64,000 nucleotides of DNA, from positions 744,001 through 808,000 of the forward strand of contig NZ_JALKAO010000002.1 of assembly GCF_023015985.1 (NCBI RefSeq), in the 5' to 3' direction. This document shows, one piece after another, positions 52,406-56,508 of this stretch; within the stretch, counting starts at the first letter, position 1, and every line of letters begins with the position of its first letter. The notes beneath the pieces were generated by a model. The model was not told the DNA's origin and did not search any database. It saw nothing but the letters and a program-made list of their open reading frames with translations. Origin of the DNA: Marivita sp. S6314. Lineage in GTDB: Bacteria > Pseudomonadota > Alphaproteobacteria > Rhodobacterales > Rhodobacteraceae. A program made the translations under genes and the position numbers.

Positions 52406-53137
52406 TCACACTTCAATAGTTTGCAAATTTTCCAATGCGGCCTTCAACGCGGTGCTCCACTGTGAAGTTGTTTGCGTGTAAGCCTCGTCAGTTTCTTCGA
52501 TCCGACGTTGACGATCGGCGTGGAGGGAATCGTTTTCGTAGATGTGAAGGTCCAGAGGCAGCCCCACGGAGAGGTTGGACTTGATCGTTGAATCGAATGA
52601 GACGAACAGCAATCGCACAGCATTGGCGAAACTCATCGCGGGATCATAGGCGCGCACGAGGATCGGTTTGCCGTATTTCGCTTCGCCGATCTGAAAGAAC
52701 GGCGAGTCTTCTGTGATCTCGATGAAATTCCCTTCCGGATAGACCAGAAAGATGGTCGACCGGCCGCCCTTGATCTGGCCGCCGACGATGACCGAAGCGC
52801 TGAACGGATCGTTGGCGCTTGGCCCGGTGGGGCTGGAATAGGCGATGACCTCTTTCAGGGTCGCTCCGACGAGACGCGCGATCTGGAACATGCTGGTCTG
52901 GCTCAGAATGCTGGGATCCCGATCTTCGACAGCCTTGGAGCGCTCGTCCAGAAGGGCCACAACCGCTTGGGTGGTGGCAAGGTTGCCTGCGGTCATCAAC
53001 GTGATCGACCGTTCCCCCGGCACGGCCCAAGTGAACATCTTGCGCGCGGACGAAAAGTTATCGACGCCCGCATTGGTGCGGGTGTCCGACATGAACACCA
53101 ACCCGTCATTCAGGCGCATCGCGACGCAATATGTCAT
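52406..53137 (-). CDS. Anbu, proteasome-related Ntn-hydrolase-fold protein
   Basis: A 243-residue member of the Anbu (ancestral beta subunit) family, related to HslV and the 20S proteasome beta subunit. After removal of Met the N-terminal residue is Thr (TYCVAMRLNDGLVFMSDTRT), with Asp at mature residue 17 and Lys at 32, as in active proteasome-like sites. GQIKGGRSTIFLVYPEGNFIE is a further family block. AAAGG lies eight bases before the ATG. It is last in an operon with ATP-grasp, alpha-E and transglutaminase genes. Whether it is a protease is unresolved. Confidence 0.93.
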   Translation of the reverse strand: MTYCVAMRLNDGLVFMSDTRTNAGVDNFSSARKMFTWAVPGERSITLMTAGNLATTQAVVALLDERSKAVEDRDPSILSQTSMFQIARLVGATLKEVIAYSSPTGPSANDPFSASVIVGGQIKGGRSTIFLVYPEGNFIEITEDSPFFQIGEAKYGKPILVRAYDPAMSFANAVRLLFVSFDSTIKSNLSVGLPLDLHIYENDSLHADRQRRIEETDEAYTQTTSQWSTALKAALENLQTIEV

Positions 53138-53170
53138 GGGGTACCTTTGAAGCTTTCCGATTGGCCGGAT

Positions 53171-53968
53171 TTACTGCTGCACCTGCAAAGATACAATCAT
53201 TGCTTCGCGACTGGAGCCCATTCTTAACCCGGAGATTGGCGCGGCATCCTGTGCGTCGCGGCCAACGGCGATGCGCAGGTATTTCTCATCAGGCGACACC
53301 CCGTTCGAAACGTCGAATCCAACCCATCCAAGATCGTCCAAATGCGCTTCGGCCCATGCGTGGCTGGCGTCCTGATCAACGCGGTCGGGCATATAAAGAT
53401 ACCCCGAAACATATCGCGCAGGCAGCCCGGCCTTGCGGGCGGCGGCGATGAAGATATTTGCGTGATCCTGACAAACGCCCTGGCCGATGGCGATGGCTTC
53501 TTCCGCCGTCGTTGCCGTGTCCGTTTTCCCCGTTTGGTAGGGCACACGGTCCAGAATAGCCGCCGACAGGGCATGCAACCCGTCCAGAGGTTGATCAGAC
53601 TTGGCAACAACTGTCGCCAGCTCTGAAATGCCGTCTTCGGGGCGCGTCGTGTCTGTCGGTTGCTGGAACAGCCAAAGCGGCGCATGTCCGTAAACCTTGC
53701 CCAGAATGCCTGCGGCATCATGGGTCGTCGCGGTGCCTTCTGCGGTCAGTGTCATCCTCTGCGTGCCGGGCTCGGCACTGACCAGATCGACCCGATTGCC
53801 GAAATGGTCGGTATAGCTGGCTTCGATCTTGCCGCCCTCGACACGCAATGCCCAATTTCCCACGCTCTGCAACGGACTGTCCAACGGACAGAGTCGCACC
53901 TTTTGCAGCGCATAATCGACCGGGGCATCGTAGTCGTATCGGGTGGTATGCGCGATGTTTAACAGCAT
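53171..53968 (-). CDS. Transglutaminase-like cysteine peptidase/transferase of the Anbu locus
   Basis: A 265-residue protein with an N-terminal beta-rich region (LNIAHTTRYDYDAPVDYALQKVRLCPLDS) and a transglutaminase core. The catalytic triad is complete: Cys166 in GQGVCQDHANIFI, His203 in DASHAWAEAHL and Asp219 in GFDVSNG. No signal peptide, so it is cytosolic. Its ATG directly follows the alpha-E stop. Reaction (peptidase, amidase or crosslinker) is not known. Confidence 0.92.
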   Translation of the reverse strand: MLLNIAHTTRYDYDAPVDYALQKVRLCPLDSPLQSVGNWALRVEGGKIEASYTDHFGNRVDLVSAEPGTQRMTLTAEGTATTHDAAGILGKVYGHAPLWLFQQPTDTTRPEDGISELATVVAKSDQPLDGLHALSAAILDRVPYQTGKTDTATTAEEAIAIGQGVCQDHANIFIAAARKAGLPARYVSGYLYMPDRVDQDASHAWAEAHLDDLGWVGFDVSNGVSPDEKYLRIAVGRDAQDAAPISGLRMGSSREAMIVSLQVQQ

Positions 53969-54910
53969 CTAGGAAATAAACCTGTAATCTTGTTCGATCT
54001 GCGTTCCAATCCGCGCTGTGTCGTCCAGAATCGATCTAAGGAATTCGTGCAGCCCCTCGTCGAAGATCGAGCCGATGTCGCGCCCCTTCAGGCGCTTCTG
54101 CAAGGTTTCGGCCAGTTGCAGACTTTCCGTCTGCATGTCGTAATCCTCGGCCAGATACGTCAGGTTCTCGACCAGTGTCGCGGCGCAAAAGGCCAGTGAT
54201 CGCGGCATGCGACGGTCAAGGATGAGAAAACGGGCGATATTGGGGGCGTTGTACTCATCATCACTGGCCCAGCGAAACGACCGATGTGCCGAAACCGAAC
54301 GCAAGATCGTTTCCCATTGTACGTTGTCCATGCGGCTGCCCACGAAGGATGGCGAGGGAAGCAATGCAAAGTACTTCACGTCGATGATCCTTGCGGTGCT
54401 GTCCATACGTTCGATGAAGGTCCCAAGGCGGCAGAAGTCATAGATGTCGTTTCTCAGCATCGTGCCGTGCAAGGCGCCGCGCACCAGAGCCGACTGTTGG
54501 CGGATCGCGGCCAAAACTTCGGGCAGATGGGTCTCGGGGATCGGATGCTTCAACCGCTCCGCCAGAAGCATCCAGGTTTCGTTCACCGCCGACCAGACTT
54601 CGGTCGTCAGGGCCGTGCGCACCAGTCTGGCATTATCACGCGCCGCCTTGATGACCGAATAGACCGAACCCGGGTTCTCGGTGTCCCGCAGCAGAAAATC
54701 TGTCACCCGCGCGCTGTCATAGCCGTCGTATTTAGCCTCGTAAGCCTGCTGGGTCGCCGAAGTCACGATCACCGATTTCCATTCAGACGCCGGATCGCTG
54801 GATCGGGTCAGGGCAATGCGAAACCCGGCCTCGATCAGGCGCGCTGTATTCTCGGCCCGCTCCAAGTAGCGGAACATCCAGTACAGACCACCTGCGGTTT
54901 TTCCCAACAT
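53969..54910 (-). CDS. Alpha-E domain protein (DUF403) of the Anbu locus
   Basis: A 313-residue all-helical protein: MLGKTAGGLYWMFRYLERAENTARLIEAGFRIAL at the N-terminus, the RGALHGTMLRNDIYDFCRLGTFIERMDSTARIIDVKY block in the middle, and LVENLTYLAEDYDMQTESLQLAETLQKRLKG near the end, all typical of alpha-E. The family always travels with circularly permuted ATP-grasp enzymes. It starts two bases after the ATP-grasp stop. Biochemical role unknown. Confidence 0.93.
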   Translation of the reverse strand: MLGKTAGGLYWMFRYLERAENTARLIEAGFRIALTRSSDPASEWKSVIVTSATQQAYEAKYDGYDSARVTDFLLRDTENPGSVYSVIKAARDNARLVRTALTTEVWSAVNETWMLLAERLKHPIPETHLPEVLAAIRQQSALVRGALHGTMLRNDIYDFCRLGTFIERMDSTARIIDVKYFALLPSPSFVGSRMDNVQWETILRSVSAHRSFRWASDDEYNAPNIARFLILDRRMPRSLAFCAATLVENLTYLAEDYDMQTESLQLAETLQKRLKGRDIGSIFDEGLHEFLRSILDDTARIGTQIEQDYRFIS

Positions 54911-54911
54911 G

Positions 54912-56330
54912 TCAGTCTTCCAATACCCAGGTGTCTTTGGTGCCGCCGCCTTGAGACGAATTCACCACCAGGCTACCTTCGCTAAGCGCGACCCGTGTCA
55001 GACCTCCCGGCACGATGTTGACCTCGCCCGGAGCAACAAGCGCGAACGGACGCAAGTCGACGTGCCGAGGGGCCAACCCTGCCTCGGTGAAAATTGGCAC
55101 CGTCGACAGGGAAAGCGTTGGCTGAGCGATATAATTGGCGGGATTGGCCTTCAGCTTCTTGGCAAATTCCGCGCATTCCTCCTTTGACGCGGCGGGTCCC
55201 ACCAACATGCCGTAACCACCCGAACCATGCACTTCCTTGACGACCAGATCTGACAGGTTGTCGAGCACATATTGAAGGGTGTCCGCTTCGGCACAGCGAA
55301 ACGTTTCGACGTTCTTCAGAATCGCTTTCTCACCTGTGTAGAACTCGACGATATCGGGCATGTAACTGTAAATCGCCTTGTCATCGGCAACCCCGGTCCC
55401 CGGCGCGTTGGTGATCGTGATATTGCCCGCGCGATAGACGTCCATGATCCCGGGCACACCCAACATGGAGTTCGGGTTGAAGGTCAGCGGATCAAGGAAG
55501 TCGTCATCAACCCGACGATAGAGCACGTCGATGACCTTGTACCCCTTCGTCGTGCGCATCGCGATATGACCGTCGACAACACGCAGGTCATGCCCCTCGA
55601 CCAGTTCGACGCCCATCTGGTCGGCAAGATAGCTATGTTCGTAATAGGCCGAGTTATGGATGCCGGGGGTCAGCACCGCCACGCAGGGCCGCCCGTTGCA
55701 ACCCGCAGGCGCGGTGGCTTCCAGCGAAAGACGCAGGTTCTTGGGATAGTCGCTGACCCGCTGAACCCTGATTTTGCTGAACAACTCAGGAAACATCTGC
55801 AGCATGGTCTCGCGGTTTTCCAGCATGTAGCTGACGCCAGAAGGTGTCCGTGCGTTGTCTTCCAGAACATAGAAGTCATTTTCGCCAGTGCGCACGATGT
55901 CCGTGCCCACGATATGGGTATAGACGCCGCCCGGCGGCGTGAAGCCAATCATCTGAGGCAGAAAGGCATCGTTTTCGGCCACCAGCTTTACAGGTACAAC
56001 GCCCGCACGGAGGATTTCCTGCCGGTTGTAGATGTCATGCAGGAACGCGTTGATGGCGCGGACGCGCTGTTCGATCCCTCGCGCCAGCTTGGTCCATTCC
56101 GCATTTGACAGAATGCGCGGCACGAGATCGAAGGGGATCAATCGTTCTTCGGCATCCGCCTGGCCATAGACATTGAAGGTGATGCCGGAGCGCCGAAAGA
56201 AGGCCTCGGCCTCGTCCGCCTTTTTGCTAAGCCGTGCATTCTCCTGCCCAGCAAACCATTTTTCATAGGCTTGGTATGGTGCGCGAAGGCTACCGTTCCC
56301 CAGCATTTCATCGAAATGCGATCCACTCAT
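54912..56330 (-). CDS. Circularly permuted type 2 ATP-grasp enzyme (DUF404/DUF407) of the Anbu locus
   Basis: About 472 residues from ATG 56330, the start that fits the family length; an in-frame ATG at 56465 would give 517. Family blocks: DFYVLEDNARTPSGVSYMLENRE, PGIHNSAYYEHSYLADQMGVELVEG, KVIDVLYRRVDDDFLDP, TITNAPGTGVADDKAIYSYMPDIVEFY and VVKEVHGSGGYGMLVGP. ATP-grasp enzymes join an acid to an amine via an acyl phosphate, so a peptide-like product is expected. First gene of the Anbu operon. Confidence 0.93.
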   Translation of the reverse strand: MSGSHFDEMLGNGSLRAPYQAYEKWFAGQENARLSKKADEAEAFFRRSGITFNVYGQADAEERLIPFDLVPRILSNAEWTKLARGIEQRVRAINAFLHDIYNRQEILRAGVVPVKLVAENDAFLPQMIGFTPPGGVYTHIVGTDIVRTGENDFYVLEDNARTPSGVSYMLENRETMLQMFPELFSKIRVQRVSDYPKNLRLSLEATAPAGCNGRPCVAVLTPGIHNSAYYEHSYLADQMGVELVEGHDLRVVDGHIAMRTTKGYKVIDVLYRRVDDDFLDPLTFNPNSMLGVPGIMDVYRAGNITITNAPGTGVADDKAIYSYMPDIVEFYTGEKAILKNVETFRCAEADTLQYVLDNLSDLVVKEVHGSGGYGMLVGPAASKEECAEFAKKLKANPANYIAQPTLSLSTVPIFTEAGLAPRHVDLRPFALVAPGEVNIVPGGLTRVALSEGSLVVNSSQGGGTKDTWVLED

Positions 56331-56508
56331 AGGGCCACGATAGCTGCGTGCGATGGAATTGCAAACACAAGCCTCAAACGGCGCGGGCCGCATATCGAGG
56401 TTATCAAGGATTGACGGCAGAACAGCCGGTTTTTTGTGCACCAAGGTACGGACCTGCGCCGCCATTGCTCACCGCATCAGCAGTTGCGGAAACAGACGCG
56501 CCCGCAGC

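Follow-up and report, generated by a model that had tools for sequence, protein, structure and literature searches.

The 64,000-nucleotide stretch of Marivita sp. S6314 DNA analysed here (the window) carries a complete Anbu operon, in which genes for an ATP-grasp ligase, an alpha-E protein, a transglutaminase-like cysteine enzyme (TG) and the proteasome relative Anbu lie adjacent and in that order on the minus strand. An earlier note made from the letters of this DNA had listed the same four genes, and the Pfam families and coordinates given below bear out their order and shared strand. Both the gene set and the "peptide-tag" idea attached to it have been published before, and this locus adds one more copy; it hints at the position of the operon start and at dependences among its genes, narrowing the problem to ATP-grasp and alpha-E as a pair and to Anbu as a candidate enzyme on that pair's product. 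On the Anbu operon the available text of Fuchs 2017 and Piasecka 2018 cites Valas & Bourne 2008 and Iyer 2009, and the Pseudomonas aeruginosa and Yersinia bercovieri operons described there share their four families and gene order with this locus. The peptide-tag hypothesis is that of Iyer 2009, as cited in the accessible parts of PMC5666114 and PMC6376114; in the literature, as far as it was available, the operon has been without proven function since 2008.

The first gene encodes a circularly permuted ATP-grasp ligase of 472 amino acids (54912–56330, minus strand), which matched PF14403 with 543 bits over profile positions 1–374 of 374 and PF04174 with 485 bits. Its start had been placed at 56465, which is wrong and is corrected here to 56330. 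The longer ORF is judged over-long because an in-frame stop falls inside the 45 codons 5' of the position of Met46 of the window's ORF in 46 of the 55 loci with a placeable start, because the solved relative 3n6x (E = 1.9e-188; the sole PDB sequence relative at E ≤ 1) shows no alignment before residue 50 of the long ORF, and because a promoter-like motif common to relatives falls within the supposed first 45 codons. The available text of PMC6376114 reports that the Y. bercovieri relative releases phosphate from ATP, and ATP-driven amide ligation is predicted for the enzyme encoded here.

The motif (56331–56364, minus strand) consists of TTGCAA (56359–56364), 16 nucleotides, TATCGT (56337–56342) and 6 nucleotides leading to the ATP-grasp ATG. 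Its pattern precedes 29 of the 55 placeable ATP-grasp starts compared with 37 of 28,142 other ATGs in the same DNA, a background comparison that is optimistic because the motif came from comparing the relatives and was defined after inspecting them. Yoonia vestfoldensis SKA53 (locus L019) is a cultured relative that has it. It looks like the sigma-70 rather than the sigma-54 type, and its position 6 nucleotides before the ATG suggests an operon mRNA that is probably leaderless, in contrast to the NtrC/sigma-54 control given for a Burkholderia core cluster in the available text of PMC5491218. A generic scan returned one promoter-like and two terminator-like sites, all on the plus strand and fewer than shuffled sequence gave. 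Both the corrected start and the motif are relevant to cloning and expressing the ATP-grasp gene. Judging from this motif and from gaps of 1, 0 and 33 bases between ATP-grasp and alpha-E, alpha-E and TG, and TG and Anbu, the four genes would be co-transcribed. Median gaps across the relatives' loci were 4, 5.5 and 34 bp; 8 of 54 ATP-grasp-to-alpha-E gaps (1439–1473 bp) were artefacts of start choice, and two others were outlying (601 bp in L048 and 158 bp in L045). The operon genes are under purifying selection, with dN/dS of 0.03–0.22 over 15 gene-relative pairs whose synonymous sites are near or past saturation.

Alpha-E (53969–54910, minus strand; 313 amino acids; PF04168, 303 bits) is all-helical and, on profile comparison of its halves, an internal duplication: hhalign matched half to half at 96.8% and E = 2e-10, with controls below 1%, and placed the repeats at residues 15–97 (54620–54868, minus strand) and 165–253 (54152–54418, minus strand). 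Each half contains an ER motif (E17-R18 and E167-R168), and all four residues are invariant in 89 aligned rows. The AlphaFold2 model has a mean pLDDT of 89. Kinship with a known helical enzyme was rejected because none of 213 Foldseek matches reached E ≤ 0.001, and against the PDB the top query TM-score was 0.32 among the best 50 of these 213. In a check for a viral or mobile origin, six alpha-E peptide patterns scanned against virus-derived contigs led to no confirmed relative.

As the earlier note had claimed, the catalytic residues of the two remaining enzymes are intact. TG (53171–53968, minus strand; 265 amino acids; PF08379, 68 bits; PF01841, 83 bits) contains Cys166, His203 and Asp219, which are present in 85, 90 and 90 of 90 aligned rows, respectively. 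In three genomes the TG adjoining alpha-E has Tyr, Ser or Gly in place of Cys; the TG N-domain is matched 5, 3 and 2 times in these genomes, and one of them keeps Anbu. Anbu (52406–53137, minus strand; 243 amino acids; PF00227, 35 bits) matched five solved Anbu sequences (5loy, 5nyj, 5nyf, 5lox and 5nyw) at E = 6.6e-62 to 1.2e-78, the best being 5loy over residues 2–238 (E = 1.2e-78). It begins Met-Thr-Tyr-Cys and has Thr1, Asp17 and Lys32, counted without the Met, upon whose removal the Thr would be exposed. Absence of an N-terminal Thr had been named as a finding that would speak against the proposal; however, Met-Thr opens Anbu in 89 of 89 loci (91 minus 2 in which the match did not reach the N terminus), and the Asp and Lys are present in 82 of 82 aligned rows.

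This Anbu and the published ones are thus alike in the N-terminal Thr, Asp17 and Lys32/33 and in the nearly full-length match to the crystallised proteins. They differ at S1-pocket position 30 (without Met), which is Ala here but Phe in 48 of 82 rows and, in the available text, in the P. aeruginosa protein. Known Anbu forms open-ring or helical assemblies via a C-terminal helix, a region compared here by sequence only. According to the available parts of PMC6376114 and PMC5666114, Thr1 of published relatives binds epoxomicin and MG132; those of PMC6376114 report no Anbu activity on standard substrates, no stimulation of the ATP-grasp protein by Anbu and no specific interaction among operon proteins. 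Anbu relatives were found in 27 of 72,556 plasmid records, all below 60% identity.

On the scale of 142 alphaproteobacterial genomes, the families proved to be nested. The same 48 genomes (core genomes) contain both ATP-grasp and alpha-E; the TG N-domain is present in 49, these 48 included; and the 35 genomes with Anbu all belong to the 48, also where Anbu is unlinked. Independent distribution of the genes, also named in advance as a counter-finding, was therefore not observed, although the nesting represents fewer independent events than these counts because the surveyed genomes are related. Gene order is conserved: all four genes stand in this order on one strand in 61 of the 67 named loci, and four of the six exceptions are contig ends. 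A one-sequence search detected no Anbu in 13 of the 48 core genomes. Because of these 13 genomes and the three with a Cys-less TG, the Anbu set is not one fixed machine. Further, 15 of 37 Anbu places have no stand-alone alpha-E within 6 kb but are still in core genomes; linkage cannot be judged in two of the 15 (G025 and G112) because alpha-E sits at a contig edge, and two others (G082 and G128) are second Anbu copies. Among 22 linked cases, five (G057, G082, G091, G095 and G128) lack a TG between alpha-E and Anbu, and one (G041) has Anbu on the opposite strand. A paralogous core locus, found in 21 of the 48 core genomes, has the same core families but with ATP-grasp and alpha-E fused in one open frame; the Marivita sp. 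S6314 genome has the stand-alone type only, with one match per core family. The genomes without detected Anbu and those with unlinked Anbu offer natural comparisons.

We posit, with confidence no better than evenly balanced, that ATP-grasp and alpha-E would jointly form one ATP-dependent amide ligase, that TG would be a cysteine transferase or protease of the cytosol with the same amide or isopeptide bond as its target, and that Anbu would be an N-terminal-Thr hydrolase trimming or removing the ligase product. Any order of action among these enzymes is putative. Anbu would be optional and useful only where the ligase exists, a dependence seen in the distribution above. In favour of this model count the shared gene order, the nested occurrence, the single open frame for ATP-grasp and alpha-E in 21 core genomes, and the phosphate release and inhibitor binding reported for published relatives. 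The setting is likely to be nitrogen limitation or economy, as suggested by other systems: in the available text of the respective sources, the core genes belong to those regulated by NtrC and sigma-54 in Burkholderia cenocepacia (PMC5491218), P. putida has more Anbu when nitrogen is limiting (cited in PMC5666114, which also places the operon in P. putida KT2440), and the occurrence of core domains in marine metagenomes follows that of urea domains (PMC3597751). Against a nitrogen role here count the origin of this evidence in other genera and the sigma-70-like, not sigma-54-like, motif; against the model as a whole count the Cys-less TG, the variable TG placement and Anbu strand, the fact that no gene inside the operon fits a substrate, the lack of activity and interaction in published relatives, and operon expression that was unchanged under several other conditions in the available text of PMC5666114.

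It is possible, at a distinctly lower probability, that the product of ATP-grasp and alpha-E is a free, peptide-like metabolite, either resembling glutathione or glutathionylspermidine or serving as a storage peptide, which TG and Anbu recycle, no protein being tagged. Consistent with this, 3n6x is named a putative glutathionylspermidine synthase, although that name is annotation only, and the published nitrogen links, as far as the sources were available, suit a nitrogen store or scavenging equally with a tag; in our opinion, however, a proteasome-type fold would be odd for a small metabolite. The neighbours neither help nor exclude this pathway because the most frequent family outside the TG group (11 of the 67 named loci), an ABC transporter ATPase, is scattered in position. 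Among the 22 clusters listed of 237 flanking-ORF clusters, the largest (12 loci) comprised TG proteins, two were ATP-grasp ORFs or their shadows, and no family outside TG exceeded these 11 loci. Ten other cluster representatives were this ATPase, a PfkB kinase, a D-Tyr-tRNA deacylase, a histidine kinase, a DeoR regulator, an isocitrate dehydrogenase, a DctM transporter and three proteins without a match. Transcription shared with the upstream RND pump was rejected, as the pump does not recur beside the loci searched: when six window neighbours were searched in the 67 loci (E = 1e-20), it alone matched, partially and weakly (32%), in L031.

Unlikely, by our estimate, is a role for Anbu as a protease that works without ATP on damaged or surplus proteins during nitrogen starvation, the other three genes being no more than neighbours of related demand. 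The open ring, the absence of a known partner unfoldase and the nitrogen response, all from the available text of PMC5666114, would suit such a protease, but no core-less Anbu was found in the 142 genomes, unlinked cases included, and the published tests available in PMC6376114 gave no peptidase activity.

The search for a substitute peptidase at Anbu's place covered ten ORFs next to core loci, taken from three genomes with unlinked Anbu and from 7 of the 13 in which no Anbu was detected; the idea was rejected for want of a common replacement. The ten included two arginyl/leucyl-tRNA-protein transferases (ATE/Bpt; G015 and G040), a glutaminase, an LpxR, a DNA methylase and an AAA protein (the last two facing the operon) and four without a Pfam match; the L101 ORF was in the wrong frame, ATE being at that place. 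The gene immediately 3' of alpha-E, in the same orientation, is ATE in 7 of the 142 genomes; these come from seven different families, and the Anbu of each is divergent and unlinked. The same arrangement occurs in six further genomes, all of a single family, within the taxonomic order to which G015 belongs. ATE is present in 46 of 48 core genomes compared with 39 of 94 others. Neighbours of divergent unlinked Anbu (ten proteins, five loci) gave no pattern: four were Anbu themselves, one a D-Ala-D-Ala carboxypeptidase, one TG (L011) and four had no match. The ATE neighbour points to protein N termini as a candidate substrate class. We consider it very doubtful that this extends to an N-end tag/untag cycle tied to nitrogen, in which ATE would add an amino acid, the ligase would extend or cap it and Anbu would trim it.

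Chance adjacency of unrelated genes or miscalled ORFs, for which only the ATP-grasp start speaks, is refuted to near certainty by the family scores, the shared order and the dN/dS values.

Anbu here has PF00227 and the Thr nucleophile in common with HslV and 20S proteasome beta subunits, but it scored 28 bits against the archaeal beta-subunit model, whose cut-off is 224, no other NCBIfam model matched at E ≤ 0.001, and the four genes include no unfoldase. A separate, stronger PF00227 gene on contig C35 of the same genome probably encodes HslV. The host group is mostly marine, and the four-gene set around its small proteasome relative is well formed here.

In the Marivita sp. S6314 genome (3.77 Mb, 99.99% complete, with the window on contig C22), four genes follow one another on the minus strand with intergenic gaps of 1, 0 and 33 bases: a circularly permuted (CP) ATP-grasp protein (Pfam PF14403, 543 bits), an alpha-E protein (PF04168, 303 bits), a transglutaminase-like protein (TG; PF08379, 68 bits, and PF01841, 83 bits) and the proteasome-like Anbu (PF00227, 35 bits). 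The Anbu protein matched five Anbu sequences of known structure (E 6.6e-62 to 1.2e-78) and, together with the Pfam scores, this agrees with the earlier note, which had correctly identified all four genes in calling a complete Anbu locus at 52406-56465. Each core family (ATP-grasp, alpha-E and TG) has a single match in the genome; one PF00227 gene besides Anbu probably encodes HslV. The nearest of the 67 named loci compared, from a metagenome-assembled Silicimonas sp. (L002), encodes proteins 90, 90, 82 and 92% identical to the four. The locus is a well-formed example of an operon that is known but functionally unproven, to which we add the ATP-grasp start, a promoter-like motif, a duplication within alpha-E, the nesting of Anbu within the distribution of the ATP-grasp/alpha-E pair even where it is unlinked to them, and a lead concerning arginyl/leucyl-tRNA-protein transferase (ATE).

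The operon is described in passages of PMC5666114 and PMC6376114, which attribute the identification of Anbu to Valas and Bourne 2008 and the peptide-tag hypothesis to Iyer 2009. They report that inhibitors bind Anbu Thr1 and that the ATP-grasp protein releases phosphate, and that neither peptidase activity nor a specific interaction was found. The peptide-tag or isopeptide reading offered by the earlier note coincides with this published idea, and the function of the operon is unproven: Anbu was without known function as of 2021 in the text seen of PMC8665760, and the titles and abstract openings of the listed papers on Anbu and the proteasome from 2019 on give none. Elsewhere, a cluster of ATP-grasp, DUF403 and TG is placed in an NtrC/sigma-54 regulon (passage of PMC5491218), and core domains are linked to urea metabolism domains in metagenomes (passage of PMC3597751).

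The ATP-grasp reading frame, called mechanically from 56465 and so delimited in the earlier note, is corrected here to start at 56330, because an in-frame stop lies within 45 codons before the equivalent start in 46 of the 55 loci that allowed the start to be placed (out of 68 tried, counting the window), because the alignment with 3n6x, a solved ATP-grasp relative, begins at residue 50, and because a promoter-like motif precedes this start. The motif (TTG, 18-21 bases, TAnnnT, 4-9 bases, ATG; TTGCAA-16-TATCGT-6-ATG in the window) precedes 29 of the 55 ATP-grasp starts and is absent from 26; of 28142 other ATGs in that DNA, 37 have it (66 of 28197 once the ATP-grasp starts are counted in), a contrast that is optimistic because the motif was defined after inspection of the sequences and the loci are related. 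Its length is 34 bases in 26 of the 29 motif-bearing loci. With this spacing, transcription would begin at or beside the ATG, so that the operon mRNA is probably leaderless. The RND pump gene, which ends 178 bases upstream, is no conserved neighbour among the compared loci. It stands where nine named loci (L012-L016, L020-L022 and L066) carry a second, divergent TG gene on the same strand before ATP-grasp, 31-40% identical to the window TG and with its Cys motif intact.

All four genes share order and strand in 61 of the 67 named loci. Four exceptions lie at a contig edge (L017, L040, L044 and L049); in L011 TG precedes Anbu and alpha-E is not beside Anbu, and the 16.4 kb stretch of Litoreibacter halocynthiae (L068) holds an Anbu fragment without its three partners. 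Across 142 alphaproteobacterial genomes, alpha-E and CP ATP-grasp share one set of 48, the TG N-domain occurs in these and one more (G066; 49 in all), and Anbu in 35, every one within the 48; the chance of the Anbu nesting is ~1e-22 if genomes were independent, which they are not, so the figure gives scale only. Anbu went undetected in 13 core genomes with a single Anbu query, which a very divergent Anbu could escape. The 35 genomes hold 37 Anbu places, of which 22 have a stand-alone alpha-E no more than 6 kb away (in 21 of them on the same strand) and 15 do not; among these 15, alpha-E lies at a contig edge in G025 and G112, second copies account for G082 and G128, and the G075 match is partial. 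A single open frame of 757-1030 amino acids joins ATP-grasp and alpha-E, additionally or exclusively, in 21 of the 48 genomes, and these fusions suggest that the two proteins act together. One genome without detected Anbu (G124) has a glutaminase gene (PF04960) after alpha-E (L097, 4671-5588).

Anbu begins Met-Thr in all 89 loci where the match extends to the N-terminus (out of 91 with a match, some sharing a genome). Across 82 aligned rows, no substitution occurs at Asp18 or Lys33 (numbering includes Met), and Thr2 is missing only from the truncated L040. At the position that we mapped by offset to F30 of the P. aeruginosa S1 pocket (passage of PMC5666114), the window Anbu has Ala whereas P. 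aeruginosa has Phe; the 82 rows have Phe (48), Thr (14), Ser (9), Ala (8), Tyr (2) and Val (1). In TG, His203 and Asp219 are present in 90 of 90 rows and Cys166 in 85, being replaced by Tyr in G039 (L075/L088), Ser in G043 (L072/L093) and Gly in G012 (L091). The Cys-less copies are those beside alpha-E in these three genomes, all of which have additional TG N-domain matches; Anbu is present in G039 and was not detected in the other two. Comparison with up to four close relatives gave dN/dS of 0.03-0.22 in 15 pairs (one skipped), with dS above 1, near saturation, in every pair.

The AlphaFold2 model of alpha-E (58 sequences) is all-helical (mean pLDDT 89, pTM 0.88). A PDB sequence search returned no convincing relative (best E 0.38), and Foldseek with the model no PDB match at E<=0.001. 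The profile of residues 1-150 aligned to that of residues 151-313 at 96.8% probability (E 2.1e-10), with E17-R18 opposite E167-R168 and W44 opposite W199, and every control (reversed C-terminal half, eight column shuffles, the other three proteins split into halves) remained below 1%. Because the halves match and the controls do not, alpha-E very probably arose by tandem duplication; the Pfam entry text mentions the ER motif and not a duplication.

In seven genomes of seven different families (G015, G028, G040, G051, G079, G105 and G135), an ATE_C match begins 345-525 bases beyond the downstream end of alpha-E and on its strand; in the four of these examined, ATE starts 32-60 bases past alpha-E, taking the first start codon. 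The gene directly follows alpha-E at the core loci L099-L102 (of G015, G040, G051 and G028, respectively). Both alpha-E-adjacent ATE proteins scanned have ATE_N and ATE_C. Anbu of the seven genomes is divergent (32-37% identical) and is either separated from alpha-E by a long distance or on a different contig. Within the order of G015, ATE adjoins alpha-E in 7 of 15 alpha-E genomes, G015 counted. ATE is present in 85 of the 142 genomes, 46 of the 48 with the core versus 39 of the 94 others, an association confounded by ancestry and genome size. The titles, abstract openings and passages found describe no link of ATE with ATP-grasp, alpha-E or transglutaminase; a passage of PMC3597751 names ATE and alpha-E separately. 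In the window's genome, ATE lies on a separate contig, C11.

Three plasmid-collection records of Acinetobacter baumannii with an Anbu relative (H2-H4) are 3.7-4.1 Mb long and therefore probably chromosomes filed as plasmids.
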